DNA from: Kordia sp. TARA_039_SRF
GTDB taxonomy: Bacteria > Bacteroidota > Bacteroidia > Flavobacteriales > Flavobacteriaceae
DNA length: 64,000 nucleotides
Assembly: GCA_006383075.2 (NCBI GenBank)
Contig: SMNH02000009.1
Span: forward strand, 1 to 64,000
Reading direction: 5' to 3'
Positions 29,756-44,201 of this stretch are shown here, piece by piece (the stretch's first letter is position 1; every line of letters starts with the position of its first letter). Below the pieces are notes generated by a model. That model worked only from the letters and a program-made list of their open reading frames with translations, made no database searches and was not told the origin of the DNA. Made by a program: the position numbers and the translations under genes.

Positions 29756-30559
29756 TTAATTTTTCTGTCGTAAGGCATTTTCTAGCAGCACTATCTTACT
29801 CTCTAAATCGTGCAATCTATCATATACATCTACAGGTTCTGGCATTTGTTTGGAAGCAAACATCGTTACGTACCAAACTTCCATAACTTCTTCTGCATTG
29901 ATGGTATATGTTGGATAGTTTCCATCTTTATTATCAGACTTTAAGATAAGTTTTCCGCGTTCTTCTATTCTATTAATGACACGTTTTAGTACAATTCCAT
30001 CGTTTCGGCTTACAATCACATACACACGACCATCTTTGATATCGCTTAAATCTTCCACATATTTCCCAAATACCAAGTCGCCATCAAAAAAAGTTCGCAC
30101 CATCGAGTTTCCTTGTACTTCAAAACAGCGATACGTTCCATTTGTTAAATGCGGCATACTAAACGAAGGCAATGTTTCAATATAATCGGCATCGCCATAT
30201 CCATCTAAATATCCTGCGCGTGCTTTGATGGGAACATACACTACATTTTCTTCTCCTTCTTGATTTACCGCAACTACTTGTGGAATTCCAGCATATGTTT
30301 GAAGTTCTGCTTTGTTCGATTTAAACATTTGTGAGCTTTTACCAAATAAATAATCTGGATTGATGTCAAACTCGTTGATAATGCTTGTTAGTAAATCATA
30401 GCCTGGTTTTGTTCTTTTTCTGGAACCATCAGGTTGTGGTCTTCCATTGGTAATACTATCAATGGTAGTACTTGTGACACCGATTCGTTTGGAAAAAGAA
30501 TTATTATTGAGTCGAAAATGATCTATGATTTCCTTTATTTTTTCATGTATTCCTTCCAT
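29756..30559 (-). CDS. Phage-type repressor: XRE helix-turn-helix plus S24 (LexA-like) peptidase
   Basis: 267 residues. An N-terminal helix-turn-helix (about 15-65; NSFSKRIGVTSTTIDSITNG) is followed by an S24 peptidase domain. The domain has a candidate Ala-Gly autocleavage site (KARAGYLDG), the nucleophile Ser in VQGNSMVRTFFDGD, and the general-base Lys in GIVLKRV. The C-terminus is a short coiled coil (DLESKIVLLENAL). The family represses lytic promoters and is inactivated by RecA-stimulated self-cleavage. It is divergent from a promoter with repeated 11-bp motifs, with an inverted motif copy 19 bp before its own start codon, suggesting autoregulation. Confidence 0.9.
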   Translation of the reverse strand: MEGIHEKIKEIIDHFRLNNNSFSKRIGVTSTTIDSITNGRPQPDGSRKRTKPGYDLLTSIINEFDINPDYLFGKSSQMFKSNKAELQTYAGIPQVVAVNQEGEENVVYVPIKARAGYLDGYGDADYIETLPSFSMPHLTNGTYRCFEVQGNSMVRTFFDGDLVFGKYVEDLSDIKDGRVYVIVSRNDGIVLKRVINRIEERGKLILKSDNKDGNYPTYTINAEEVMEVWYVTMFASKQMPEPVDVYDRLHDLESKIVLLENALRQKN

Positions 30560-30577
30560 ATATAGCTCCGATATTTA

Positions 30578-30651
30578 AACATTTTACAAATTATTTCTGT
30601 TTTATGTTTGAATTAATCTGTAATTTGTTTATATTTGTACTGTAATTTGTT
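30578..30651 (+). promoter_or_regulatory. Putative repressor-controlled promoter with phased 11-bp repeats (site 1)
   Basis: Direct repeats of the motif TGTAATATGTT occur at 30598-30608 (TGTTTTATGTT), 30619-30629 and 30641-30651 (both TGTAATTTGTT), 21 and 22 bp apart. A -7 box TATATTTG lies at 30630-30637 and a TTTG at 30607-30610, 19 bp upstream of it. An inverted copy (TGTAAAATGTT on the minus strand) covers 30578-30588, just ahead of the S24 gene. Function as an operator is inferred. Confidence 0.65.
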
Positions 30652-30827
30652 GCTAATATACGAATTTTTATTGAAAATCAAACATTTGTGAGGATATTTG
30701 TCGGTTTTATTCTTCATAAATACAAAAAAAGCGATACAATATAGACTGGCGGTTACGTATTTGAATGCTAAAATTCACATACGCTTTTTTAAAAAAGTAG
30801 AATAATAATAACACATAAAATAGTACC

Positions 30828-30983
30828 ATGAAAAGAAGTAAAGAGCTATTAGACAAAAGAAAGAAATTCATTCACAGCTACGTAGAAGACAATTCTGCAA
30901 AGCAAATGAAAGTCATCATCAACGAATTAGTGGATAGACTGTTCATTTCGGAAAAGACGATATACAATATTTTAAAACAATAG
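30828..30983 (+). CDS. Small HTH-like protein
   Basis: 51 residues starting MKRSKELLDKRKKFIHSYVE and ending in RLFISEKTIYNILKQ. The C-terminal half looks like a single helix-turn-helix of the phage/transposase type. It is the first open frame after repressor-controlled promoter site 1. Preceded by A-rich sequence and no clear Shine-Dalgarno, as usual in this phylum. It may be a small DNA-binding regulator; no family recognised. Confidence 0.6.
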   Translation: MKRSKELLDKRKKFIHSYVEDNSAKQMKVIINELVDRLFISEKTIYNILKQ

Positions 30984-31155
30984 GAAGCTAGTCACTCAAA
31001 CGTATTAAAATATGTATAGCTGGAAAGCTCCTTTTCTAATAAGGAGTTTTCCTCTTCAAAAAAATACAAACATATCCTGCAGTGAATACGCTTATTGTAG
31101 TATGAAAAAGTTCTTAGGGTTAGTTATTCATATTCATCACTACACTACGTATTCA

Positions 31156-31187
31156 AAAAATCCCTTCGCGTAAGGGATTTTTTTTCA
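31156..31187 (+). terminator. Terminator or attenuator ahead of the tail-collar gene
   Basis: Stem AAATCCCTT/AAGGGATTT with a CGCGT loop and a T run. It lies 30 bp before the tail-collar start codon, downstream of promoter site 1. A weaker hairpin (CTCCTT/AAGGAG) lies at 31029-31047. Confidence 0.7.
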
Positions 31188-31216
31188 GCTTAACATTTAT
31201 TAAAAACATACAAATC

Positions 31217-31891
31217 ATGAAAAAATCAATTCAAGAATTAAAATCCTATTTTGAAACAGGAGACAAACCGACAGAAGCACAATATAAAGACTTGTTAGAT
31301 AGTTTAGCTATGCCAATGATTGGAGAAATTAAAACAGTGAGTTTTGCTACTGTTCCAAGTGGTTGGGCAGCTTGTAATGGGCAATTATTAAATATTGCTG
31401 AACACGACGTGTTATTCAGTTTGATAGGAACTACCTATGGCGGTGATGGCACCACCACATTTGCATTGCCAAATTTGCAAGGAAAAACCATGATTCATAA
31501 CGATTCAAATTTTGCATTAGGTCAATCCGGAGGAATTTCTGAAAATACATTAACGGAAGATCAATTACCAGCGCACAATCATGCAGTTGGAAATTTGGCG
31601 GCTTCTCACAACTTAACAGGAACAGTGAAAGTTAACGAAGAAGATGGTGAATCAGAAGATCCACAAAACAAAAATTTTGGAGTTTTTACTGGTTCTATAC
31701 CTGATTTTATATACAATCCATACATCAACGATAAGTTAATGGCAGCAGACAACGTTCAAATTGATGGAGGTGTAACACTTTCAGGAAGTACTTCACAAAC
31801 AGGAAGCGGAACTCCTGTTAACAATATGCAACCGTATGTATCAGTCAATACAATTATTGCCCTAGAAGGAATTGATCCTTTAGCAAGTTAA
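31217..31891 (+). CDS. Phage tail-collar domain protein (tail-fibre/MdpB-like)
   Basis: 224 residues. An N-terminal ~30-residue module (LKSYFETGDKPTEAQYKDLL) is shared with the protein at 33129-33725. A tail-collar domain follows: IGEIKTVSFATVPSGWAACNGQLL, LIGTTYGGDGTTTFALPNLQG. Then comes the usual QLPAHNHAV motif and a C-terminal PYVSVNTIIALEG. Such proteins tip phage tails or phage-derived injection devices. It is preceded by a terminator-like hairpin and followed by promoter site 2. Confidence 0.88.
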   Translation: MKKSIQELKSYFETGDKPTEAQYKDLLDSLAMPMIGEIKTVSFATVPSGWAACNGQLLNIAEHDVLFSLIGTTYGGDGTTTFALPNLQGKTMIHNDSNFALGQSGGISENTLTEDQLPAHNHAVGNLAASHNLTGTVKVNEEDGESEDPQNKNFGVFTGSIPDFIYNPYINDKLMAADNVQIDGGVTLSGSTSQTGSGTPVNNMQPYVSVNTIIALEGIDPLAS

Positions 31892-31946
31892 ATTTACCTG
31901 TAAAAAAGCGTATTCAAACAAAAAGCAGAAAAAAATAAAAGAATTT

Positions 31947-31987
31947 TGTAATATGTTTGTTTTATATTGTAATATGTTTTATATTTG
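31947..31987 (+). promoter_or_regulatory. Putative repressor-controlled promoter with phased 11-bp repeats (site 2)
   Basis: Exact TGTAATATGTT at 31947-31957 and 31968-31978, 21 bp apart. TTTG at 31956-31959 (-33 candidate) lies 20 bp from the -7 box TATATTTG at 31980-31987. It drives toward the endolysin-holin-fibre operon. Confidence 0.7.
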
Positions 31988-32001
31988 AACTCGCTTTTCT
32001 A

Positions 32002-32124
32002 ATGAACAGTACATCATTTTGTACGATTCGTATATTAAAATACACTGTTGAGAAGAATCTTATAAGCATGCAAAGCCCTATTCTGGTTAAGAAAAATACA
32101 AAAATAAAGTTGCATCAAATCTAA
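32002..32124 (+). CDS. Possible short leader peptide
   Basis: A 40-codon frame starting with the first ATG 14 bp after the -7 box of promoter site 2. It has a basic composition and no recognised motif. It could be a leader peptide or chance; the remaining leader to 32270 shows no other gene. Confidence 0.25.
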   Translation: MNSTSFCTIRILKYTVEKNLISMQSPILVKKNTKIKLHQI

Positions 32125-32270
32125 GTTTTTTATTCTCAAATTAAATTCCAACATTTTCATGAATATATAAACCACGCACTGATTATTCAGTAGCGAAGGC
32201 ACTGCTTTTGTTCTTTTTTGAAATGATAAAAAGTAGCAGTATTGCCAAATATTAAAAAAAAATTGAAACT

Positions 32271-32705
32271 ATGAGCTTAATTCAAAAGGCATTATCTCAA
32301 TACGGAGTTACAGAGGTTGACGGTAAAGCAGATAATCCCCAAATTATACGATATTTTGAAATTATAGGATTTGATGGTAGCAAACTACAAGATGAAACTG
32401 CTTGGTGTAGTGCATTTGTGAATTGGGTTGCTAAAACGGAAAACTATACATACAGCGGAAAATTAAATGCTAGGAGTTGGTTGAATGTCGGTGAATCTAC
32501 CGCATCGCCCAAACAAGGAGATATTGTTGTGCTATGGCGCGAATCTCCAAGTAGTTGGAAAGGTCATGTCGGATTTTTTGTAAAGCAAACAAAACGATAT
32601 GTATACATTTTAGGAGGCAATCAAAACAATAGAGTTTCTATTAAAGCGTATCCTAAAAATAGAGTATTAGATTACCGGAAACTAGTAAAGCATGGAGAAA
32701 TTTAA
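32271..32705 (+). CDS. Endolysin-like peptidoglycan hydrolase (TIGR02594/CHAP-like)
   Basis: 144 residues with the cysteine/histidine amidase pattern. It has IRYFEIIG, then TAWCSAFVNWVAK with the catalytic Cys at about residue 45. Next come PKQGDIVVLWRESPSSWKGHVGFFV with the catalytic His, and the acidic/amide GGNQNNRV motif. No signal peptide is seen, as expected for a holin-dependent phage endolysin. Its last 14 bp overlap the holin-like gene. Confidence 0.85.
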   Translation: MSLIQKALSQYGVTEVDGKADNPQIIRYFEIIGFDGSKLQDETAWCSAFVNWVAKTENYTYSGKLNARSWLNVGESTASPKQGDIVVLWRESPSSWKGHVGFFVKQTKRYVYILGGNQNNRVSIKAYPKNRVLDYRKLVKHGEI

Positions 32706-33132
32706 ACCGTATTTATTTTGGTTATTTACCTTAATTGCACCTATTATTTCTGTAATGTTAACTGTTGGTTTTTTAATCGTTGTTGATTTTATCACAGAAT
32801 CGTATGCTGGAATTAAGAAAAATATTCCTATTTCAAGCGAGCGTATTGGAAATACCATTTCAAAATTTTTCATTTATAATCTAGTGGTGTTATCTGCTTT
32901 TTTAATGGAAAAATATATTGTAAATGAAATTCCCTTTATGCGCATTATTGCTGGATTTATAGCAATTGCTGAAATTAAATCCATTATGGAAAATTTTAAT
33001 AACATCTATGGTATTGACCCTTTTAAAGCTTTGATAAATTTAATCAAAAAGAAGGCACATATCAATTTTGAAGATACCATAGAACATCTTGTGAATAATT
33101 CTGAACAAGATCAAAAAAATCAAAAAAAATGA
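32692..33132 (+). CDS. Holin-like membrane protein
   Basis: 146 residues with two or three TM helices in the first 85 residues (LFWLFTLIAPIISVMLTVGF, FFIYNLVVLSAFLM, MRIIAGFIAIAEI), followed by a charged cytoplasmic tail. The layout resembles the phage_holin_4 class. Its gene overlaps the endolysin by 14 bp and the following fibre gene by an ATGA, a compact lysis cassette. The holin assignment rests on topology and context. Confidence 0.7.
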   Translation: MEKFKPYLFWLFTLIAPIISVMLTVGFLIVVDFITESYAGIKKNIPISSERIGNTISKFFIYNLVVLSAFLMEKYIVNEIPFMRIIAGFIAIAEIKSIMENFNNIYGIDPFKALINLIKKKAHINFEDTIEHLVNNSEQDQKNQKK

Positions 33133-33725
33133 AACAATCATTAGAAACATTAAAATCTTATTTCGAAACTGGTGACAAACCAACGCAAGGGCAGTATGAA
33201 AATCTACTAGATAGCTTGGTGCATGTTAATTTAGTCCCTGTTCCCGTTCATACAGCAGAAGCATCTTCTAATTATGCAAGTGCTGCGTACAGTCCTATTT
33301 TTCCATTTAGCAATAGTATACAACCAAAATCAGGATTTACCAACTATCATTGGTTAAGTGATCCAGGACAAACAACCAATCAGCGTTTGTGCATTTACTT
33401 TAAAAACCCATGTAGCATTTCAAAATTTATCTACATAAATGCAGGACAAAACGCTACCTCTAAAGGCGGTATTAAAACCTGTAGAATGTATGGTATGACT
33501 GAAAGAATGATGTATGCTACCACGCATGGAACCATTGTTCCTGAAATGACAGATGTATTATTTAGTGGGGATTTAGATCAATATACTGAAAGCCAGTTTG
33601 ATAACGGTGGCGTAAGTGTCGAAATTCCAAAAACGCCTGTAATTTATGGAATCATATTAGATATGGACGATAAACACAGCGGAGAAGCATACATTGGTTT
33701 AAAATCAATGAGTTTCTACCAATAA
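33129..33725 (+). CDS. Putative tail-fibre/adhesin protein with shared N-terminal module
   Basis: 198 residues. N-terminus SLETLKSYFETGDKPTQGQ followed by YENLLDSL is nearly the same as in the tail-collar protein at 31217. The rest is unrelated and looks like a beta-sandwich of the discoidin/galactose-binding type (for example RLCIYFKNPCSISKFIYI and AYIGLKSMSFYQ). This suggests a common docking end with exchangeable binding domains. Start ATG overlaps the holin stop (ATGA). Confidence 0.6.
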   Translation: MKQSLETLKSYFETGDKPTQGQYENLLDSLVHVNLVPVPVHTAEASSNYASAAYSPIFPFSNSIQPKSGFTNYHWLSDPGQTTNQRLCIYFKNPCSISKFIYINAGQNATSKGGIKTCRMYGMTERMMYATTHGTIVPEMTDVLFSGDLDQYTESQFDNGGVSVEIPKTPVIYGIILDMDDKHSGEAYIGLKSMSFYQ

Positions 33726-33754
33726 TTTCCACTCAATATTGTAGAATAATTACG

Positions 33755-33785
33755 GAGCCTTTGTTATAAGCAAAGGCTCTTTTTT
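33755..33785 (+). terminator. Rho-independent terminator of the lysis/fibre operon
   Basis: Stem GAGCCTTT/AAAGGCTC followed by six T, 29 bp after the fibre stop codon. Confidence 0.8.
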
Positions 33786-33798
33786 ACCTGTAAAAATC

Positions 33799-33990
33799 AT
33801 GAAAAAAATACATTTATCAACCGATCGCATATTACTAATTATGATAGCACTTTTGCTTTGGTATAGCGCTTTACTGAAAGCCTGCGAAAGTGATAGTGAC
33901 GTAAGTTTAGAACCCAAAATAAGTATGGTAAAAGAAATTGTTTCGCACGCAAATTTACATCGCAAAGGAATCCGTAGAAAAAGACGATAG
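33799..33990 (+). CDS. Small membrane or lipoprotein-like protein, unknown
   Basis: 63 residues: basic start, one hydrophobic stretch (ILLIMIALLLWYSALLKAC), then an acidic segment and a very basic C-terminus (HRKGIRRKRR). The Cys after the hydrophobic stretch could be a lipid-attachment site but the lipobox is poor. Its place after a lysis cassette would suit a spanin-like role, which is only a guess. It lies just behind the terminator, so its promoter is unclear. Confidence 0.45.
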   Translation: MKKIHLSTDRILLIMIALLLWYSALLKACESDSDVSLEPKISMVKEIVSHANLHRKGIRRKRR

Positions 33991-34006
33991 TTCCCCCTAA
34001 TAGTTA

Positions 34007-34318
34007 TCAAATTGAAAACAACAACATAATAATTAATACAATCAATACGAATGTTAAAAACTCAAAGACAAACGGTTTTCTCTTAAATTTTTCCAATGTA
34101 TTGAGGGTTTCTTCTGATTCTTTCTCTTTCAAGCATTCATTGACATGCTCTACAAAAGGCAAATCTTTTTCTTGAAAAAAATACTCTGTAAACTTTGAAT
34201 CGGGAATTTCTCTTTTTACAAAATCAATTTGTTGTTGTTTTAATGCATTATCAAAAAAAACCTCTGCTTCATCATTCGTGAATAATTTAAAATAACGCTC
34301 TAAGTTTACTTTTTTCAT
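34007..34318 (-). CDS. Tail-anchored protein of unknown function
   Basis: 103 residues: charged soluble part (1-80) starting MKKVNLERYFKLFTNDEAE, then one C-terminal TM helix (about 83-102). This is the topology of tail-anchored membrane proteins. No family recognised. Divergent from rnpA with a 73-bp gap. Confidence 0.65.
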   Translation of the reverse strand: MKKVNLERYFKLFTNDEAEVFFDNALKQQQIDFVKREIPDSKFTEYFFQEKDLPFVEHVNECLKEKESEETLNTLEKFKRKPFVFEFLTFVLIVLIIMLLFSI

Positions 34319-34391
34319 TTGCGGTCAATGTCTTATAAAGATACGAATTACAATCTTATTTTCTATTTTTACCGAGATTCAATACATATAC

Positions 34392-34784
34392 ATGAAGTAT
34401 CGTTTTCCGAAAGAAGAAAAATTAAAAAGTAAAAAATGCGTAGAACTCCTTTTTAATGAAGGAGCTGCCGTAACAAAATTTCCGTTACGCCTTGTTTATA
34501 TTGCGACCGATTTACCCAAAGACGTTCCCGTACAAGCTGGTGTTTCTGTGGCGAAAAGACGGTTTAAAAAAGCGGTAACTCGCAATCATATTAAAAGATT
34601 GATGCGAGAAGCCTATCGTTTGCATAAAAATGAGGTTTTTAACAGAATATCAACATCCTATGCTTTCATGTTTTTGTATATTGGAAAACAAGAACCTACT
34701 TTTGAAGAAGTAGAAACTTCAATGGTTCGATTGTTGGAAAAGTTTATCGAAAAAATTGATGCAACAAATACGCTTAAAGACTAG
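34392..34784 (+). CDS. rnpA: Ribonuclease P protein component
   Basis: 130 residues. The family signature is visible as VSVAKRRFKKAVTRNHIKRLMREAYR (given in parts: KAVTRNHIKRLMREAYR is the conserved RNR motif). The N-terminus has the usual FPKEEKLKSKKCVELLF. It helps the catalytic RNA mature tRNA 5' ends. Upstream of the S41 peptidase gene, a common flavobacterial arrangement. Confidence 0.95.
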   Translation: MKYRFPKEEKLKSKKCVELLFNEGAAVTKFPLRLVYIATDLPKDVPVQAGVSVAKRRFKKAVTRNHIKRLMREAYRLHKNEVFNRISTSYAFMFLYIGKQEPTFEEVETSMVRLLEKFIEKIDATNTLKD

Positions 34785-34826
34785 TTATATAAAAGTTATC
34801 TTGTTAACTATTAATGAAGTAAAAAG

Positions 34827-36464
34827 ATGAAGAAACTGTTAAAAAAACGAATTATTATTCCCGTATTGGCAATCACATTGCTATTTGGTGCGGTTGGATT
34901 TAAAAGTGATTTCTTTGAAATTGCCAAGCAAATTGAAATATTCACAACCATGTTTAAACAATTAAACATGAACTATGTAGACGAAACTAATCCTGCAGAA
35001 TTGATGGACGATGCCATTAAAGAAATGCTGAACGATTTAGATCCGTATACAAAATTCTACAACGAACAAGATGTAGAAGCTGCCAAAATCCGAAATGCCG
35101 GTGAATACTCTGGAATTGGCGCTTCTATCCGTAGAAACAAAAATAAAATTACCATCATTGAACCTTACAAAGGATATCCAGCAGACAAAGCAGGCTTGAA
35201 AGCGGGCGACGAAATCATTAAAATTGACGATATCGTCATTGCTAATTTTAAAGAAGATACAGGCGAATTGTTAAAAGGTGCTGCCAACAGCAAAATAAAT
35301 ATTGTATACAAACGTCAAGGAAAAGAATACGAAACGGAATTGACACGAAGCAAAGTAGCAGTAGATGCGGTTCCTTTTTATAAAATGATTGATGACAAAA
35401 CGGGTTATATCGTCTTGGCGAAATTCAACAAAAAAGCTAGTGCTCAAACCAAAGATGCTTTGGAAAGATTGAAAGAAGACGGCGCAGAACGCATTGTGCT
35501 CGATTTACGCGGAAACCCTGGCGGATTATTACGAGAATCTATTGCTATTGTTAACTTATTTGTGCCAAAAGGCGAAGTTATCGTTACTACAAAATCGAAA
35601 GTAAAAAAATACAACAGAACGTATAAAACTAGAAAACAACCTGTAGATACGGAAATTCCGCTCGTAGTTTTGGTAAATGGAAAAAGTGCTTCTGCAAGTG
35701 AAATTGTTTCTGGAGCTTTGCAAGACTTAGATAGAGCCGTTGTTATTGGCGCGCGTAGTTTTGGAAAAGGTTTGGTGCAACAACCAAAAAAACTCACCTA
35801 CGGAACACAATTAAAAGTGACGATTTCAAGATATTATACACCTTCAGGACGTTGTATTCAGGCGTTGGATTATTGGAATAGGGACGAAAATGGAAACGCT
35901 GTTCGTACGAGCGAAAAAGATTATAATGCTTTTAAAACGAAAAAAGGAAGAACTGTATATGATGGTGGTGGAATCAATCCTGATATTGTAATTGCTTCTC
36001 AAAAAACAAGCGATTTTACACGTGCTTTGGTCGGAAATTTGGCAGTTTTCAATTACGCAACCGAATATTACAACAAAAATACGTTTGCCACTATGAATGA
36101 TTTCTCTGCGGATGCGATTGATTATGAAACGTTCAAAGAAAATATGGAAGCTTCTGGCATGGACTTTTACGAAACCAACACCGAAAGAGAGCTCAAAAAA
36201 ATCATGAGTACGCAAGAAGCAACCGATTTTGGTAACGAGGTTTCAAAAGAATACAAAGAACTATTGGAATCTATTCAACAAAGCAAATTAGACGCTCTAG
36301 ACACCTATAAAGAACAAATTGAGGTAGAACTTCAAAACGAAATTTTAAAGCGTTATTTCTATCGTGAAGGCATGTACGAGTATCAACTAACTCATGATGA
36401 AGCTATCAAAAAAGCTACAGAGGTTTTAGCAAATACTACGGAGTACAATCGTATTTTAAACTAG
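34827..36464 (+). CDS. S41 family C-terminal processing peptidase (CtpA/Prc-like)
   Basis: 545 residues: N-terminal signal/anchor (about 8-24), a PDZ domain (about 95-170; GIGASIRRN, ADKAGLKAGDEIIKIDD), and the S41 catalytic domain. The latter has the nucleophile region NGKSASASEIVSGALQD and the general-base Lys in ARSFGKGLVQ. A helical C-terminal region follows. It cleaves proteins from their C-termini in the periplasm. Confidence 0.94.
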   Translation: MKKLLKKRIIIPVLAITLLFGAVGFKSDFFEIAKQIEIFTTMFKQLNMNYVDETNPAELMDDAIKEMLNDLDPYTKFYNEQDVEAAKIRNAGEYSGIGASIRRNKNKITIIEPYKGYPADKAGLKAGDEIIKIDDIVIANFKEDTGELLKGAANSKINIVYKRQGKEYETELTRSKVAVDAVPFYKMIDDKTGYIVLAKFNKKASAQTKDALERLKEDGAERIVLDLRGNPGGLLRESIAIVNLFVPKGEVIVTTKSKVKKYNRTYKTRKQPVDTEIPLVVLVNGKSASASEIVSGALQDLDRAVVIGARSFGKGLVQQPKKLTYGTQLKVTISRYYTPSGRCIQALDYWNRDENGNAVRTSEKDYNAFKTKKGRTVYDGGGINPDIVIASQKTSDFTRALVGNLAVFNYATEYYNKNTFATMNDFSADAIDYETFKENMEASGMDFYETNTERELKKIMSTQEATDFGNEVSKEYKELLESIQQSKLDALDTYKEQIEVELQNEILKRYFYREGMYEYQLTHDEAIKKATEVLANTTEYNRILN

Positions 36465-36474
36465 AAAAATAACC

Positions 36475-36918
36475 TTATCGAATCATAGCAATGTGCGGAA
36501 TACCATCTTCAAGGTATTCCGTTCCTATTTGTGTAAATCCGTGTGCGTTGTAAAACTTTCGCAAATAGGTTTGTGCCGAAATTTTAATGGCTTCTGTGTG
36601 ATAATGTGTTTTAATCGCTGCAATAGAAGCTTTTATAATTTCATGTCCATAACCGAACGCACGTGCATCTTTTGAAACCACTACTCTACCGATACTAGCT
36701 TTTTCAAAATAATCGCCTGCATCAAACAAACGTGTATAGGCAACAATCTTTCCGTTTTCGTCATTGCCAACTACATGAAGTGCTTTTCTATCTTTCCCAT
36801 CTACATCTTGATACACACAATCTTGCTCCACTACAAAAACTTCGCTTCGTAGTTGGAGTACATCGTACAATTCATCAATAGTAAAGGCTTCAAAGGGTTT
36901 CACAGTTATGGTAAGCAT
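36475..36918 (-). CDS. GNAT family N-acetyltransferase (ElaA-like)
   Basis: 147 residues, start MLTITVKPFEAFT; five more in-frame codons exist upstream. ElaA-type features: LYDVLQLRSEVFVVEQDCVY near the N-terminus, IGRVVVSKDARAFGYGHEII (acetyl-CoA loop), and FYNAHGFTQIGTEYLEDGI near the end. Acceptor substrate unknown. Confidence 0.88.
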   Translation of the reverse strand: MLTITVKPFEAFTIDELYDVLQLRSEVFVVEQDCVYQDVDGKDRKALHVVGNDENGKIVAYTRLFDAGDYFEKASIGRVVVSKDARAFGYGHEIIKASIAAIKTHYHTEAIKISAQTYLRKFYNAHGFTQIGTEYLEDGIPHIAMIR

Positions 36919-36971
36919 ACAATCAAAAATCAATTAAAAAAGAAACTACAGGAACATTTTACATAAAATAC

Positions 36972-37012
36972 TGTAAAATGATTCCTAAGTATTGTAATAT
37001 GTTATATATTTG
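36972..37012 (+). promoter_or_regulatory. Putative repressor-controlled promoter with phased 11-bp repeats (site 3)
   Basis: TGTAAAATGAT at 36972-36982 and TGTAATATGTT at 36993-37003, again 21 bp apart, with the -7 box TATATTTG at 37005-37012. It points toward the 1147-residue protein gene. Confidence 0.65.
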
Positions 37013-37051
37013 TGTTGTTATTTTAGCATAAAGCTACAAAATAAAGCAATA

Positions 37052-37207
37052 ATGGCTAATAATACGAATCTTTTTTATTTTGTCTAAACACAATTCAAAC
37101 ATTTGATTGAATTACAGGTAGCACAAAAATTAGTTTTTAATCGTACAAATGCAGTACTGTCATTAGAAAAGCGGCAACAGTTTATGCAAACATATTTAAA
37201 CGATTAA
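37052..37207 (+). pseudogene. Possible small gene interrupted by one stop codon
   Basis: From the ATG at 37052 the frame is open to 37207 except for one TAA after 11 codons. The second part (TQFKHLIELQVAQKLVF onward) ends in LSLEKRQQFMQTYLND, which resembles part of the 51-residue protein at 30828 (LLDKRKKFIHSYVED). It sits between promoter site 3 and the large gene, as the 51-residue gene sits after site 1. Low certainty. Confidence 0.3.
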
Positions 37208-37217
37208 AATTAAAAAG

Positions 37218-40200
37218 ATGAAACAAAACATCAAGAATACCTTGTACAGATTCGTCACCATGCGCGCTCCAGAACTTATTGGAGAAACTGATAAAGCATT
37301 GGGATTTGTACAATTTCCAACAAGTGAAACGAGTGAATTTATTACTCCTGCCACGCAAGCAGCCACTCCAGAAGCTAGAAAAACAGCTATTGAAACTGCT
37401 GTTACTGGCTATACACCTGTATATGCTTCAAAGGCAGCTTTAAAAACTGCAAATTCACACTTTTTTGAACTAGCAACTTGGCTTACTGCCAATAGATCAA
37501 AATTTACGGTTACTGAGCTTACCGCTAAAGTAGACGATTTCAATCAAACAGGAGCTGCGATTCCTAATATGGTAGAAATTTGGGATGATTTACATTACAA
37601 CATTCTTACTTCGGGTGATTCATATTTAAGAGATGTACTTCTATCCTATTTAGTAGCAAAATTCTTTCTTGATAATCAATTAAAAGTTGATGCCACAGCG
37701 AAAGATTTACAAAAACTAGCACAAGCCAGAGTTGTCATTGATAAGATATTATTTAGTTATGAAGTTTCGCCAACGCAACCAAGAACGCCAAAAGTAGCAG
37801 AAAAACATTTCAAAAAAGAAATGAATGCGCTTACAGCAAAGCAAAACGTAACGGAACTAGAAGCTATTGCAAAAGAGATCGAAAAAGCTAAAAAAATATA
37901 TACCGCAGAAAGAGCTAGAGCCAAAGCTGCTTATCAAAAAACGCATGACGATGCTGTTGAAGCCGCTTATGCAGCAGCTACTTTAACAGAAAGAGTCGTT
38001 ACCGACCCTGATACGGGAGAAACTTCTGTAGTAAAAGAATATACAAACTTAAATCTACCAGAGTATGACTTTACCTATGTTGAGTTAGACGAAAATAAGC
38101 TCGATAATAGATTGAGTGAGCCTGCATCGCAAATAGTCTCTGATTATATAACACAAAATGGCGTAACAACATTCCAAGAAGTTGAAGATCTAATTGCTAT
38201 TGATATTCAATCAAATACTGACGAGTTGTTTGACAATGTTGATTTAACGTCTTCAGAAGTAGTACTACCAGGTGGTGTTTCTATTCCTGTAACTGGAAAT
38301 GCTCCTATTGCACCTTTCTCATATAGCCTATGTCCAAAACAAAAAATTGGAACATCGTTATATAATTTGTTGATGACAATAAATATTCCTAATTCCTCTT
38401 ATGATGTTGTGGATGTATTAATTGATTTTAATGGTCAGCCATATTCTGACTTTGAAGAATTTAGATCAAATTCAAAAATTTCTTTAGTACTTTGTTCTGA
38501 AGGTATTGACTTAAGTCTAGCTTCAGAAATTGATATTGAGATTGAATTTTCAAATGGAGAAAGATATGATGATAATATTTTAGATATTGTACCTAAGGTC
38601 TGTAAATTAGGTCAACTTCAGCCAATATCAGTTAGTCCGTCAACAACAACAGAAGCTCCTGTAGTGTATGGAATTCAACGTTTGGGAATTGCCGATTATC
38701 GCAAAGTAGAACAAGAAGTATGTTGCTATGTGCCAGGAGAAGTTTCACATATTGAAAACATTATGGCGCGTGAATACAAATCGAAAGATGTAAGACGTAC
38801 ACGTCGTCAGGAAACTACAGACACTTTTTCAAGCGAAACCGAAAGAGAAAACCTTACAGAAACAACGTCTACAGATCGTTTTGAGATGAACCAAGAAATT
38901 GCTTCTATGACAGCACAAGATCAGTCTACAAATGCTAGTGCTGGAATACATTGGGGTAATGGCAATAGTTTTGGAGGAAATGCTAGTGCAAGTTTTGCTA
39001 CCAACACATCTTCTGAAGAATCTGAAAGTCAAGCTATCAATCATGCTAAAGAACTCACAGAAAGAGCATTAGATAGAGTGGTTCAAAAAGTACGTGAAGA
39101 ACGTGTTACAAAAATTGTAGAAGAATACTCTGAAACCGCTTCGCATGGTTTTGATAACCGAACTGGAGATAAACACGTGTCTGGTGTGTATCGCTGGGTT
39201 GATAAAATTTACGAAAATAAAATCCTCAACTACGGCAAGCGCTTGATGTATGAATTTATGATTCCAGAACCTGCTGCTTTCCACGAATTAGCCATAGAAA
39301 TTACGGATAATGAAGACCTATTGGTAAGACCTGTAGATCCAAGAACCGAAGCAGCAGCTTTGCAACAAATGAAAGATTATACAGATATTACCAAAGCAAA
39401 TTCAAAACACTGGGCAGCAATATACAATGCTGAAATTAACCCAATGCCAGCTGAAACTGTATACGTTTCCAAATCGTATAGTGAAAGTAACATGACTGAA
39501 AATTCTGGAAGATGGGCACACTCTGGACATGAAAGTGTAGAAATTCCTGAAAATTACTATGCATCCAAGTATAGCGGATTTTTTACTGCAGAGCACGGGC
39601 ATCGTGAAGATAATGGTCCAACTTATATGCGAGGTGCTATTAGTATTGGTGGAGACGATCACTCAATGAATGCAAATCAAGGAAGTGCTATTAGTATTGA
39701 CGGTGATTTTCCAAATGAAAATATGATCAATTCCTTAGATTTTTCTGTGGCTTCTTGGGATATGGGAGCGTATGCTTTCAACCTTAAGGTAGAATGCAAA
39801 TTACTTCCTGAAGCCGAAGAAGCATGGCAGTTAGAAACTTTCAATGCTATTATTGAAGCTTATGAAGCACGTTTGGCAGCGTATGAAGAAAAATATGCTG
39901 CACAAAAAGCGAAAAACGAAGAAAAAATCAAGATCAATCCTGGATTCTTCCGCGAAGTTGAACGTACAGTGTTACGTAAAAACTGTATCGCTTACTTATT
40001 AGGTCATGAAAATATGGGACTTGATTTATTGGAAAACAGACATACTGCATCTGAAGTTGTTCCTAAATATTCTAGTCCAGCATTAGACGAATATGCAGCT
40101 AAAGTAAAGTTCTTCGAGCAAGCATTTGAATGGAATATTATGAGCTACTATTTCTATCCGTTCTATTGGGCTAAAAAAGATAAATGGACAAAACTATATC

Positions 40201-40661
40201 AAGTGCGAAATGACGATCCGTTATTCAAAGCCTTTTTACAAAGTGGAATGGCACGTGTTATCCTCACTGTTCGTCCAGGGTTTGAAGAAGCTGTAAACTG
40301 GTATATGGCGACAGGACAAATTTGGAATGGTGGACAAGTACCAACACCAAGTGATGAAGAATTTGTATCGATTGTGGAAGAATTACGCAATCCAGAAGGC
40401 ATGGTGGAAGAAACTTGGGAATCACGTGTACCAACTTCGTTAACGGTTATTCAAGCGGGTGCTATCGGACTCAATGTAGAAGGATTACCATGCAATGACG
40501 AATGCGACGATTGGTTAAGATTTGATACTGACGGAAATCCTGTAGTAGACGAAAATGGAAACCAAATCTCAGACAATCCAATTGTACAAAGCGATGAGCT
40601 CATAGGCGGCACACAAAGTGGCGTTGGAAGTGATGTAGTAGGAGAAACTACGGTACAATAA
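37218..40661 (+). CDS. Large protein of unknown function (1147 residues) in the repressor-controlled island
   Basis: No family recognised. No signal peptide; the first 200 residues are helical. A charged coiled-coil-like stretch lies at about 205-260 (AKEIEKAKKIYTAERARAKA). A central beta-rich region (about 330-490) is followed by a Pro/Thr linker (SVSPSTTTEAP). Then comes a strongly charged segment from about 516 (MAREYKSKDVRRTRRQETTD). A Gly/Ser/Asn-rich patch at about 575-600 (GIHWGNGNSFGGNASASF) is next, then a long helical region and a Trp-rich C-terminus. Absence of a signal peptide and the link to the lysis cassette would fit release by lysis; this is inference. Confidence 0.8.
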   Translation: MKQNIKNTLYRFVTMRAPELIGETDKALGFVQFPTSETSEFITPATQAATPEARKTAIETAVTGYTPVYASKAALKTANSHFFELATWLTANRSKFTVTELTAKVDDFNQTGAAIPNMVEIWDDLHYNILTSGDSYLRDVLLSYLVAKFFLDNQLKVDATAKDLQKLAQARVVIDKILFSYEVSPTQPRTPKVAEKHFKKEMNALTAKQNVTELEAIAKEIEKAKKIYTAERARAKAAYQKTHDDAVEAAYAAATLTERVVTDPDTGETSVVKEYTNLNLPEYDFTYVELDENKLDNRLSEPASQIVSDYITQNGVTTFQEVEDLIAIDIQSNTDELFDNVDLTSSEVVLPGGVSIPVTGNAPIAPFSYSLCPKQKIGTSLYNLLMTINIPNSSYDVVDVLIDFNGQPYSDFEEFRSNSKISLVLCSEGIDLSLASEIDIEIEFSNGERYDDNILDIVPKVCKLGQLQPISVSPSTTTEAPVVYGIQRLGIADYRKVEQEVCCYVPGEVSHIENIMAREYKSKDVRRTRRQETTDTFSSETERENLTETTSTDRFEMNQEIASMTAQDQSTNASAGIHWGNGNSFGGNASASFATNTSSEESESQAINHAKELTERALDRVVQKVREERVTKIVEEYSETASHGFDNRTGDKHVSGVYRWVDKIYENKILNYGKRLMYEFMIPEPAAFHELAIEITDNEDLLVRPVDPRTEAAALQQMKDYTDITKANSKHWAAIYNAEINPMPAETVYVSKSYSESNMTENSGRWAHSGHESVEIPENYYASKYSGFFTAEHGHREDNGPTYMRGAISIGGDDHSMNANQGSAISIDGDFPNENMINSLDFSVASWDMGAYAFNLKVECKLLPEAEEAWQLETFNAIIEAYEARLAAYEEKYAAQKAKNEEKIKINPGFFREVERTVLRKNCIAYLLGHENMGLDLLENRHTASEVVPKYSSPALDEYAAKVKFFEQAFEWNIMSYYFYPFYWAKKDKWTKLYQVRNDDPLFKAFLQSGMARVILTVRPGFEEAVNWYMATGQIWNGGQVPTPSDEEFVSIVEELRNPEGMVEETWESRVPTSLTVIQAGAIGLNVEGLPCNDECDDWLRFDTDGNPVVDENGNQISDNPIVQSDELIGGTQSGVGSDVVGETTVQ

Positions 40662-40778: not shown

Positions 40779-42926
40779 ATGTATGTATACGAGTATGGAG
40801 TATCAAATTTTACCAGAACATATAAGCCTTTTAATCATGTAACTGTATTTAATGATATTTATGATGTGCTAGATATTGATGAAAATAATATCACTGGATA
40901 TGGTTTTTATATAAAAGTTGCACTAGATCCTAATGATGAAAGTGTTGCTAGAGCTGTAGTAGACGAAAAAAGTGGCGGTCATATAGTTTTTCGTGCTAGA
41001 GTTTTTGAAGAATATCTAAAACATATAAATCCATATTACGAAGTTGGTTACAGAATAGTTCATGATACTGGGATTAATTATGGTCCTAATCAACAACTGG
41101 ATGCCCAAGAGCTTGGAGAAGTTAAAATTGTATCTTATAATGGAGAATACTATGCTTTTATTGATGTTAATAAAGGACTTGAGGAAGTAATTATAACCTA
41201 TAATAAAGAATCAAATTCTGTTCAAACGAAACCACAAAATAATATCGTTAAAAGACTTAAAGCTGCTCCACGATTTAAAGAACTAGAAGAAGATTTAGCA
41301 AGAGAAAATATTTCAGTGATTTTAATGATTTCAGATGATGGTGCTAAAATTGAAAATACTTTCCAAAATACAAAAACCTTATTACCTAACGAATTAGTAA
41401 TATATGTTGAAAATGATAATGGATTTAATTTTACAGGATCTGTTTTTAGAGTTCGATCTGGAAGTGATGTCACCAAAGATTCCAAACTTCCATTCAATGT
41501 AATTGCTAAATTATGCAGATTTTTTGATGTCAATATTTCCAAAAATAAAATAGTGGAGTTTTTGACAGATCATGTGACTACTAAAAATGAAGAAATAGGC
41601 TATTTCAGTAGAGCTGGCTTAAAACTTATAAAATTAGCTTCTGAATTTGCATTAGACTCTGTTGCAGGACTTTTTGATTTAACAACTCAAGGAATAAATT
41701 ATCTAAGAATTGAAAATCCCAATTACTGGAAAAGATATGATGAAAACGGTAACATAAATAACGAGTATAAACCTTTATTACCTGGCTACGAATATATCAA
41801 AATATTACAGGCAATGTTTTATGAACCACCTAAAACAAAAGAAGAGAAGAAAACTAAAAAAGAGACTGAAAAACAATTAAATAAAAATATTTCCGGAGGA
41901 TCTCTTTCTTCTATTGGAGGTGACATAGAAAAATCAGAAAAGGAACTTCGATCTAGTATCGACGGACTTGGAATTTCTTCTCTTATCAATTTCGTAAAAC
42001 AAAAACTTCAAGGTGTTTTTAGATTTTTAAGTGAAGTCAAAAGCATTATTAAAAAAGTCATTAAATATATACTTGATGCACTTGAAAAGGGATTTATATA
42101 TTGTAATGCGTTCATTGTTGGCTTATATAATAGTTTAATTGATACCGTAACAGGAATACTACAATTAATTAGTATGATATGTAAAGGTGTAAAATCTCTA
42201 GTTAATACTGGTGCTGAGGTACTCAAAAATCCTACTACGTATTTTAGTATGTTTTTAGAAATGTTTGAAAATGGTATCGAAACTGTTGCAAAATTATTCT
42301 CATGGAAAAATGTAAAAGCGTTTGTTGGATTTATAGTTCAACTGGTAAAATTTTATCTTTTTCCAACTAGAGAAAACAGTAAATTTCTTGATGATATTAC
42401 TGAGAAAGTGAAAAATAAATATAACCAAGCAAAAGAAAAAATTTCTGAAATTAATACAAATGTTAGCCTCACGTATGATCAACTTGGATATGGTGTAGGA
42501 TACATAATCGGTTTTATAGTTTCAGAGGTTGCGTTTACAATAGCTACAGGAGGTGCAAGCACAGTTTCAACAGCATTAAGAGTATCAGCTAAAGGGTATT
42601 TATCAATTCTTAAAGGTGCTGGTAAAATCACTACGACTGCTGTTAGAGGTGTTTACAAAACTATTAAATTTTCATTTCGCTCAGTTATCAACTTTATGAG
42701 ATATCTAAGAAGTTTAGTTGTCAAAATACCTCAATTGCTCAAAAAAATGGTGAATTGGTTTAATGAAGTAGGAACAGCAGCAAAGAACGTTGTAGATGAA
42801 GTATTTAAAAAACTATTCCCGAACGAAGCTATGAGAAATAGAATTTTAGCTGCTGGATTCAAACCTACTAAAGTAAACGCTGCTGGAGATATTATAACGT
42901 TTTGCCCCATAAAAAACATACTATGA
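40779..42926 (+). CDS. Large pretoxin-like carrier protein (polymorphic-toxin type)
   Basis: 715 residues, no signal peptide. The N-terminal ~150 residues are beta-rich and unrecognised. A Lys/Glu-rich linker lies around 348-372. Amphipathic and hydrophobic helices fill about 405-530. A Gly/Ala-rich membrane-active-looking stretch follows at about 564-640 (LGYGVGYIIGFIVSEVAFTI). The end, FPNEAMRNRILAAGF onward, is short and lacks a toxin domain. The stop overlaps the next ATG (ATGA), so the toxin appears to be a separate coupled gene. Role as delivery or carrier half is inferred. Confidence 0.6.
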   Translation: MYVYEYGVSNFTRTYKPFNHVTVFNDIYDVLDIDENNITGYGFYIKVALDPNDESVARAVVDEKSGGHIVFRARVFEEYLKHINPYYEVGYRIVHDTGINYGPNQQLDAQELGEVKIVSYNGEYYAFIDVNKGLEEVIITYNKESNSVQTKPQNNIVKRLKAAPRFKELEEDLARENISVILMISDDGAKIENTFQNTKTLLPNELVIYVENDNGFNFTGSVFRVRSGSDVTKDSKLPFNVIAKLCRFFDVNISKNKIVEFLTDHVTTKNEEIGYFSRAGLKLIKLASEFALDSVAGLFDLTTQGINYLRIENPNYWKRYDENGNINNEYKPLLPGYEYIKILQAMFYEPPKTKEEKKTKKETEKQLNKNISGGSLSSIGGDIEKSEKELRSSIDGLGISSLINFVKQKLQGVFRFLSEVKSIIKKVIKYILDALEKGFIYCNAFIVGLYNSLIDTVTGILQLISMICKGVKSLVNTGAEVLKNPTTYFSMFLEMFENGIETVAKLFSWKNVKAFVGFIVQLVKFYLFPTRENSKFLDDITEKVKNKYNQAKEKISEINTNVSLTYDQLGYGVGYIIGFIVSEVAFTIATGGASTVSTALRVSAKGYLSILKGAGKITTTAVRGVYKTIKFSFRSVINFMRYLRSLVVKIPQLLKKMVNWFNEVGTAAKNVVDEVFKKLFPNEAMRNRILAAGFKPTKVNAAGDIITFCPIKNIL

Positions 42927-43765
42927 GAAAATTATTAAAATTTCTCATACATGTATGGGAATTAAAAACAATAAGTAAAATTGATTTTTTACTAATAAAA
43001 ATAAAAGATACATCTATTATATTAGGTTGTTTTAATGTCGTTTTTGGATCTAAGAAGTTTAAATTCAATTTGTATGCAAGAAAAACAGGTGTTTTATTAG
43101 AAGAAAATATAAGAAAAAGGCAACTTGATTCTTTAATGAAAAAATATAAAAATAAAGCTAAAACAGCGGGAAAAACATTAGATGAATATTTTGAAGAATT
43201 AGCAACAGCCGTTAGGAATGGAAGAAGTCAGAATATAATAGCTAAATTTGTAAAAGGTGCCAAACTTGAATTAGTTGGATCAAGATTTAAAAACCTTTTT
43301 GGAGGAGGAATTATTGTATTACATCCTGAAAGAACAGTTGCTGTTACAGGAATTTTAGATGATATGAAAATAATAAAAGGTCTAGGTTTAAAAAATTTGT
43401 GGAAACAAGGAAGTAATATTGGAGGATTAGATATATTATCTTCTCCTGTTTGGAAAAAGCTTAAATTAAAATATAAGGCTTTAGAGAAAACTAATAATAA
43501 ATTATATTGGAAAAAAATAACAAAGGATTTCTGGGACGAAGTAAATAAACCTTGGTTAGATGATATTATAGCTAGAGGTGATGATGTTAGATTTATTTCT
43601 GATCCAAGTTTAGAAACCTCTAAGTATGTATTTGATGATAAATTAAGAATGTTTGCTACAGATGAATTTGGAAAAAAAGTTCCTACTATTTTTAGTAAAG
43701 AAGTTGAGTATTTAAAAAATAATGGCTATGAAATAATTGGCCACATAGCTAGAAAAATAAATTAA
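42923..43765 (+). CDS. Probable polymorphic-toxin C-terminal domain protein
   Basis: 280 residues from the ATG at 42923 (ATGA overlap with the previous stop). A lysine-rich N-terminal part is followed by a compact C-terminal domain with GGLDILSSPVWKKLKLKYK, KDFWDEVNKPWLDDIIARGD and a final PTIFSKEVEYLKNNGYEI. That last pattern resembles the ends of secreted polymorphic toxin domains seen in many bacteria; I do not assign an enzymatic activity. It is much more AT-rich than neighbouring core genes. It is followed 4 bp later by a small acidic gene. Confidence 0.55.
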   Translation: MRKLLKFLIHVWELKTISKIDFLLIKIKDTSIILGCFNVVFGSKKFKFNLYARKTGVLLEENIRKRQLDSLMKKYKNKAKTAGKTLDEYFEELATAVRNGRSQNIIAKFVKGAKLELVGSRFKNLFGGGIIVLHPERTVAVTGILDDMKIIKGLGLKNLWKQGSNIGGLDILSSPVWKKLKLKYKALEKTNNKLYWKKITKDFWDEVNKPWLDDIIARGDDVRFISDPSLETSKYVFDDKLRMFATDEFGKKVPTIFSKEVEYLKNNGYEIIGHIARKIN

Positions 43766-43769
43766 TATT

Positions 43770-44201
43770 ATGGAAGAAGAATTATACATCCCAAAAAGTT
43801 ATTTAACTGTACAAATAGTTCGTGATGTAATGGCTGAATTTGAATGGCCGGTATCGTATGAATTAATAGATTTAATAGAAGATTTTCAAGCAGTTATAAT
43901 TAAATTTAAAAGTTGTGAAATTGAATTAGAGGAAATTCCTGATAATGGAATCAATTTGGTTTTTCGATCTTATGATAATGGAAAAAAGTTAGATGCTAAA
44001 TATGGAAATATTATAAAATATCTTGATAATTATAATCCAGCAGAACATTTGGATTTAGAATACAATACATATACAGATCCAAGACTCGATATCATTACAT
44101 CTGTTAGGAATGATATGAAAAATCTACAATACTATCATATGGATTTTATTACTGGTAGAGATTATTCTTGGGCTAAAAAGTATTTAAAAGAAATAAATTA
44201 G
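43770..44201 (+). CDS. Probable immunity protein
   Basis: 143 residues, acidic overall (MEEELYIPKSYLTVQIVRDV; LDLIEDFQAVIIKF not exact family match). It has no signal peptide. Position 4 bp after the putative toxin, small size and acidity against a basic toxin fit a cognate immunity protein. No Pfam-style immunity family could be named from sequence alone. Confidence 0.55.
   Translation: MEEELYIPKSYLTVQIVRDVMAEFEWPVSYELIDLIEDFQAVIIKFKSCEIELEEIPDNGINLVFRSYDNGKKLDAKYGNIIKYLDNYNPAEHLDLEYNTYTDPRLDIITSVRNDMKNLQYYHMDFITGRDYSWAKKYLKEIN

Follow-up and report, generated by a model that had tools for sequence, protein, structure and literature searches.

Tandem operator arrays, probably of an S24 repressor, ahead of lysis and putative toxin genes in Kordia and other Flavobacteriaceae

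The window analysed here (64,000 nucleotides) is the start of a contig of Kordia sp. TARA_039_SRF (host genome 4.6 Mb), and it carries the gene of an S24 repressor together with three arrays of an 11-bp repeat (operators A, B and C; Table 1), placed at the promoters of a 51-residue helix-turn-helix-like protein (HTH51) followed by a tail-collar protein, of a lysis operon, and of a 1147-residue protein (p1147). The first-pass annotation of this DNA had assigned the three promoters to a single regulon of the S24 protein. Comparative genomics of the family supports that assignment and refines it: the S24 protein is very likely the repressor of a bacteriocin-type regulon with its own release genes, not of a generic prophage regulon, comprising HTH51/tail-collar, the lysis genes and a putative toxin operon, with a probable link between the leaders of the last two.

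Layout and specificity of the operator in Kordia

The 11-bp unit has the consensus TGTAAWATGTT and is repeated at distances of 19-23 bp, about two helical turns. The second direct copy occupies the spacer between -33 and -7, a repressor-like position, next to TATATTTG, which we take to be the -7 box. A TTTG is present at -33 in site A (30607-30610) and site B (31956-31959), where it overlaps the last bases of the first direct copy. The repeat coordinates of the first-pass annotation, its inverted copy ahead of the S24 gene and the 0-1 bp gaps to the -7 box all check out, but that inverted copy is not the single one, as site C has a second inverted arm; in the same way, the -33/-7 layout proposed for the three promoters holds for sites A and B, whereas site C of the window genome has no TTTG at -33. 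No internal dyad was seen within the 11-mer, as judged by eye and without computation.

Single 11-mers, previously described as nearly absent elsewhere, are in fact frequent and not enriched (62 matches at two or fewer mismatches, versus 51 ± 7 expected), and single half-sites were dropped as evidence; it is the spaced pair adjoining a -7 box that is significant. The specificity of this pair was analysed in 11 Kordia genomes (the window's plus ten genus-mates). The exact pair (TGTAAWWTGWT-N9-11-TGTAAWWTGTT) occurred 27 times, 26 of them at this locus, compared with no occurrence of the reversed pattern used as control; it was confined to this locus in ten of the genomes and had one additional place, in G004, and is thus not common at unrelated promoters. 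The repeat joined to the -7 box gave 35 matches when up to two mismatches were allowed (22 in the locus, 13 elsewhere; reversed control 10) and 18 exact matches, every one within the locus. The gap between S24 and HTH51 keeps AACATTTTACA plus two TGTAATTTGTT in all 11 genomes, and the order inverted arm, direct copy, direct copy, -7 box was found upstream of p1147 in all eight Kordia genomes whose p1147 region was covered, with a mismatch in one operator copy of G010. G004 lacks an operator-type p1147; a four-site version of the operator (L101:14587-14675) stands there ahead of a DUF2589 gene, possibly an alternative payload.

The repeats could be conceived as part of the promoter itself, for instance as the site of an alternative sigma factor with no repressor, since the second repeat lies 0-1 bp from TATATTTG at all three promoters. 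However, the -7 box, and the TTTG at -33 of sites A and B, fit the ordinary Bacteroidetes promoter, whose consensus consists of a -33 TTTG and a -7 box; site A extends past the -7 box; sites A and C have an upstream inverted arm; and the site follows S24 plus the gene cassette rather than the genome background (see below). We regard a pure promoter element as extremely improbable.

Distribution in the family and the protein that would bind the operator

Species genomes were scanned by S24 alignment, and the best 80 of 88 loci were used (from Kordia, Aquimarina, Tenacibaculum, Psychroserpens, Winogradskyella, Olleya, Dokdonia and others). Built from Kordia-type sites, a composite site model matched 145 times at score 20 in 82 loci (the 80 plus two viral ones), versus 36 times in reversed sequence, and 70 versus 2 times at score 30. 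Above score 28, the 80 S24 loci contain 73 distinct sites: 40 upstream of S24, 26 upstream of CHAP/holin lysis genes, seven upstream of p1147 and none in other places; after removal of the eight Kordia loci (leaving 72 loci, 1,411,805 bases), 32 sites remain at S24, 18 at CHAP and none elsewhere. Where 900 bp ahead of CHAP were available, 31/33 genes have a site scoring above 20, which in L172 and L197 is the S24-side operator. Another 30 loci contain p1147 with CHAP outside the fetched stretch; a CHAP match was present in 28 of 29 genomes searched, and 17 of the 30 CHAP loci fetched from them have an operator site (that of L214 sits closer to its gene than computed, the CHAP start having been misplaced in the scan). 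Most of these CHAP loci lie about 10-25 kb from S24 by coordinates, beyond the fetched locus and not unlinked.

Operator and cassette are absent together. Both are present in 61 of the 80 loci, the cassette without the operator at S24 in six, the operator without the cassette in none, and neither in 13 (Fisher 8.6e-11, ignoring kinship), meaning that the operator is missing from 13/13 S24 loci without the cassette (orphan S24s). In a maximum-likelihood phylogeny of these 80 S24 proteins, the state without cassette and operator requires at least six changes, and five of the eight long end branches named are orphan S24s lacking the operator. Genome-wide, the exact pair was found in none of the 13 orphan S24 genomes and in 8 of 11 cassette genomes picked by hand from the 67 cassette loci, all eight matches being inside the fetched loci. 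The array is also absent upstream of p1147 in all seven loci whose genomes have either no S24 match or one of just 32-36% (an eighth p1147 genome without S24 orthologue, G112, is outside these seven) and upstream of the second p1147 copies of the window genome (L102) and G320 (L116); seven further stretches with Kordia p1147 paralogues have 0 or 1 half-site each, and L113 a weak composite match (22.0) that is not upstream of p1147.

Several observations weigh against a regulon of this composition. Two Aquimarina lysis operons within S24 loci have no site. Of the 30 further CHAP loci, 13 are likewise without a site scoring over 20: six are from Aquimarina, three from Dokdonia and one from strain R38, the remainder being L236 and two second copies. 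In the six cassette loci with no operator above threshold at S24, the array looks degraded by eye in five and L130 shows almost none. The reversed control matched once (G346) in the search of orphan and cassette genomes, and all 80 loci were selected by S24, so that the co-occurrence is conditional on S24. The Aquimarina lysis promoters of L210, L212, L213, L215, L216 and L217 keep the -7 box and the GCTTTTC start, with the operator array below threshold; lysis control may have been rewired in these strains.

The S24 protein matches the Pfam family S24 (2e-10) and the PHROG transcriptional repressor (1.3e-22), with an HTH_19 match (7.5e-5) whose 23.0 bits fall below the cut-off of 30.2, and its counterparts in the ten genus-mates are 94-99% identical; the S24 protein of K. 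periserrulae DSM 25731 is 99% identical. A115-G116, S152 and K192 are invariant in the aligned S24 proteins (seven sequences from six genera). As described in PMC8565304, an Ala-Gly site and a Ser-Lys dyad are features of RecA-stimulated cleavage in Bacteroidetes LexA, and the S24 protein keeps both. A minus-strand element resembling an operator half-site, ACAAATGTTTGA (30678-30689), is retained in most orphan S24 loci too and probably represents the -33 region from which the repressor gene is transcribed.

HTH51 is the other candidate binder at the locus, being HTH-like and encoded right after operator A in 11/11 Kordia genomes; this protein, or another unlinked regulator, might bind the repeats, perhaps as an activator replacing a weak -33 element, as the absence of TTTG at -33 in site C of the window would allow. 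Against it, HTH51 was detected in 22 of the 61 operator-bearing loci and went undetected in 39, relaxed search included (51-residue proteins are easily missed); one repeat sits between -33 and -7, the place of a repressor and not of a classical activator; the array is missing from the seven p1147 loci of genomes without an S24 orthologue; and the five orphan S24s without operator stand on long branches. An HTH51 or unlinked regulator therefore appears improbable, and HTH51 is disfavoured as the binder. Retention of the operator without detectable HTH51, together with the joint absence of operator and cassette at S24 loci and of the array where S24 is missing, favours S24 as the protein that would bind the operator.

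Controlled genes and related systems

Operator B stands ahead of genes for a CHAP endolysin, a holin and a 198-residue protein, and operator C ahead of p1147, the variable p715 and small ORFs, the housekeeping genes RnpA and S41 peptidase lying between the two sites. No Pfam, PHROG or NCBIfam model matched p1147 above cut-off; of 299 family genomes sampled, 15 have a gene like it (the window's and one genus-mate's included), and identity to p1147 is 30-53% among its relatives (alignment of 38 of the 43 full-length ones). The ORF in the p715 position is variable, with a mean column identity of 16% (40 of 41 relatives' ORFs aligned), and Pfam families found in 41 such ORFs, that of the window included, were: WHH (6), Colicin-DNase (5), Tox-MPTase4 (2), EndoU (2), deaminase (1) and ADP-ribosyltransferase (1), where one ORF may match two families. 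SMI1_KNR4 (SUKH-type) matched 20 of the 58 small ORFs scanned further downstream; the comparison of small ORFs took in 57 of 68. These toxin domains, which in relatives often form the end of the ORF, and the SUKH immunity genes after them, with holin and endolysin under the same operator, lead to the bacteriocin reading, in which toxin, immunity and lysis would be governed by one repressor. It counts against this that the window's own p715, p287 and p143 gave no toxin or immunity match in Pfam. The genome of the window has two more p1147-family genes, at G000:C1:305740-309150 (39% identity) and G000:C3:393343-396690 (33% identity), both without operator. The tail-collar protein and the 198-residue protein share an N-terminus of about 31 residues and differ in the remainder, a modular start also found in relatives.

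Phage-like matches are few at the locus. The ten ORFs from S24 to p143 gave tail-like PHROG matches in the collar protein, in CHAP (best PHROG, tail lysozyme) and, weakly, in p715 (tape measure); they include no sheath, tube, capsid or terminase, so that the window locus has no tail or capsid cluster under the repressor as a prophage or tailocin would. In the viral contig L199, of which 10 of 16 ORFs were examined, an S24 protein 61% identical to the window's is divergent from an HTH51-like gene, with DUF2586, presumably a tail-sheath-like family, DUF6046 and relaxase genes nearby (L199:7014-12190). Speculatively, the switch could have been acquired from a phage or tailocin, the tail-collar gene being a remnant.

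The Escherichia coli colicin operons contain toxin, immunity and lysis genes controlled by LexA. The Kordia system resembles them in having tandem operators of what would be one S24-type repressor at putative toxin and immunity genes and at lysis genes, with operator B placing the CHAP/holin release genes under the shared control, and presumably in release by lysis; it differs in the separate transcripts and operators of toxin and lysis, in the phage-type CHAP endolysin with holin, in the large p1147 ahead of the toxin-position ORF and in the complementary leaders. The lambda CI operators OR1-OR3 are likewise arranged in tandem at intervals of about two helical turns, and the divergent promoters on either side include the repressor's own, as at site A; here, in contrast, each unit is an asymmetric 11-mer, and all share one orientation except for a single inverted arm. 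The non-canonical Bacteroidetes LexA of PMC8565304 combines S24 with a CI-like HTH and has the motifs GGA-N5-TCC or CTAA-N5-TTAG; the present protein shares the phage-type HTH with S24, the Ala-Gly and Ser-Lys residues and operators at its own promoter, but has a tandem TGTAAWATGTT array instead, both published motifs being absent between 30559 and 30830 of the window. With the exact pair at this locus only in 10/11 Kordia genomes, there is also, as far as exact pairs show, no sign of control of SOS repair genes such as recA, umuDC and dinB. Polymorphic toxin systems, as described in PMC3482391, have variable toxin domains followed by SUKH-type immunity genes, as do the relatives here with their WHH, Colicin-DNase, EndoU, MPTase4, deaminase and ART domains; the difference is that release here would apparently occur by regulated lysis (no systematic search for secretion markers was made). 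Judging by titles and the starts of abstracts, and among the matches listed, the literature on Flavobacteriaceae/Tenacibaculum/Aquimarina toxins, Kordia toxins, Bacteroidetes S24 repressors, DUF2589 and mRNA-mRNA pairing held no precedent for this system.

Table 1 Positions of the operator elements, leader elements and genes in the window.
Feature	Coordinates	Strand	Basis
S24 repressor, 267 aa; HTH_19-type N-terminus, S24 peptidase C-terminus	29756-30559	-	Pfam, PHROG
Operator A, inverted arm AACATTTTACA	30578-30588	-	Sequence check; exact in 11/11 Kordia
Operator A, imperfect copy TGTTTTATGTT, 2 mismatches, overlaps -33 TTTG	30598-30608	+	Sequence check
Operator A, copy TGTAATTTGTT, 0 bp gap to -7 box	30619-30629	+	Sequence check
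-7 box TATATTTG of HTH51/tail-collar promoter	30630-30637	+	Sequence check
Operator A, downstream copy TGTAATTTGTT	30641-30651	+	Sequence check
HTH51, 51-aa HTH-like protein, below Pfam cut-off	30828-30983	+	Homology search
Tail-collar protein, PF07484	31217-31891	+	Pfam, tblastn
Operator B, two TGTAATATGTT spaced 21 bp	31947-31957 and 31968-31978	+	Sequence check
-7 box TATATTTG of lysis promoter, 1 bp gap after repeat	31980-31987	+	Sequence check
Predicted 5' end of lysis leader, at or near CGCUUUUCUAAUGAACAGUAC; pairs with 37154-37173, one bulged base	31992-32012	+	RNAduplex
CHAP endolysin	32271-32705	+	Pfam; TIGR02594
Holin, Phage_holin_4_1	32692-33132	+	Pfam
198-aa protein, collar-like first 31 aa, variable rest	33129-33725	+	tblastn
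Operator C, inverted arm AACATTTTACA	36953-36963	-	Sequence check; missed by the first-pass annotation
Operator C, first direct copy TGTAAAATGAT	36972-36982	+	Sequence check
Operator C, second direct copy TGTAATATGTT, 1 bp gap to -7 box	36993-37003	+	Sequence check
-7 box TATATTTG of p1147 promoter	37005-37012	+	Sequence check
p1147-leader element in predicted hairpin, stem ACTGT/ACAGT, complementary to lysis mRNA 5' end	37154-37173	+	RNAduplex, folding
p1147, conserved partner of toxin-position ORF	37218-40661	+	Pfam, alignment
p715, ORF in variable toxin position	40779-42926	+	Homology search, Pfam
p287 and p143, small ORFs in immunity position	42902-44201	+	SUKH in relatives

Complementarity of the lysis and p1147 leaders

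The lysis transcript is predicted to start a few bases past the -7 box, at or near CGCUUUUCUAAUGAACAGUAC. Its 5' end would probably pair in trans with the hairpin of the p1147 leader, a post-transcriptional interlock that could determine which of toxin synthesis and lysis comes first, or in what ratio they occur. RNAduplex was run on each p1147 leader with the initial 32 nt of its partner lysis leader; 39 of 52 p1147 leaders had a partner lysis leader with operator, the other 13 being excluded from the test. Pairing energies were between -20 and -33 kcal/mol in 37/39 pairs, and over all 39 pairs 159 of 3900 shuffled leaders were as strong as the real ones. Own partners total -985.5 kcal/mol, compared with a mean of -755.5 ± 22.6 after permutation (0 of 5000 permutations as low), foreign partners pairing much more weakly; as relatives share sequence, permuting partners is not a phylogenetic test. 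The hairpin lies about 30-85 nt ahead of the start codon in 34 of the 36 p1147 leaders measured. An Rfam scan of 30500-37300 gave a single sub-threshold match (E 0.2).

In the core of the 37 duplexes (positions 0-9), 370/370 cells pair, eight of them as G-U, in a register chosen by RNAduplex, which favours pairs. Plain substitutions on both strands of the duplex are seen in columns -1, 4 and 10, and compensating changes occur in Kordia, Tenacibaculum, Winogradskyella/Psychroserpens relatives and others; the clearest case is L127, whose element is largely different and still pairs over 18 consecutive bases. Drift alone would not be expected to preserve complementarity between two diverging sequences. 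The ten other Kordia lysis leaders have means of -25.6 to -29.4 kcal/mol with Kordia p1147 leaders, and in G004 the lysis element has decayed (mean -10.3 kcal/mol).

Part of the evidence speaks against pairing. The leaders of L180 (-10.8 kcal/mol) and L188 (-7.1) do not pair; in columns 5, 6, 7 and 9, part of the two-sided change is due to shortened elements (L127, L160 and L173) that are displaced by one base; and G003, which like G004 has no operator-type p1147, keeps its lysis element (-27.4 kcal/mol). In addition, among the seven lysis leaders without operator, six from Aquimarina reach -12.1 to -20.5 kcal/mol, partly through -7 box bases that are probably untranscribed, and L209 reaches -25.5 kcal/mol at a different site.

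Instead of RNA pairing, both leaders might contain an inverted DNA-binding site, or the complementarity might be left over from the coding sequence of HTH51: the Kordia p1147-leader element resembles, by eye, a decayed HTH51 N-terminus, and in Aquimarina the leader element lies within the HTH51 coding region. We consider these origins unlikely, given the fully paired core (in the register chosen as noted), the two-sided substitutions of columns -1, 4 and 10, the position of the lysis element at the predicted 5' end of the transcript and the much weaker pairing of foreign partners. The decay of the element in G004, with operator B kept, also argues for pairing with p1147, although G003 does not follow it. 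Blocking the element changes the mean unpaired probability of the start region from 0.50 to 0.59 in p1147 and from 0.62 to 0.63 in CHAP, changes too small to point to a direction of control by pairing.

As a model drawn from the sequences, the CI/LexA-like S24 protein would bind the 11-bp sites over the three promoters on one face of the helix, one copy covering or adjoining -33 and the next filling the gap to the -7 box, and so block RNA polymerase; because site A spans the start region of the divergent S24 gene, it would also regulate itself. The repressor would be lost, most likely through RecA-stimulated self-cleavage upon DNA damage, and three transcripts would follow: HTH51/tail-collar, CHAP-holin, and p1147 with the toxin-position ORF and the immunity genes. 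Lysis by holin and endolysin would then free the toxin, whose production may be coupled to lysis through pairing of the two leaders.

Repressor-controlled toxin and lysis genes are a known kind of system; the probable leader pairing is the part with no precedent among the papers listed. The Flavobacteriaceae would have a colicin-like logic, in which one autocleavable repressor commits the cell to toxin and bursting, and the operator, once named, would serve as a regulatory marker of such toxin systems in genomes with no annotation of the carrier protein. Should the pairing prove true, an mRNA-mRNA link would join the two halves of an altruistic programme, and the timing of lysis versus toxin production would be directly testable.

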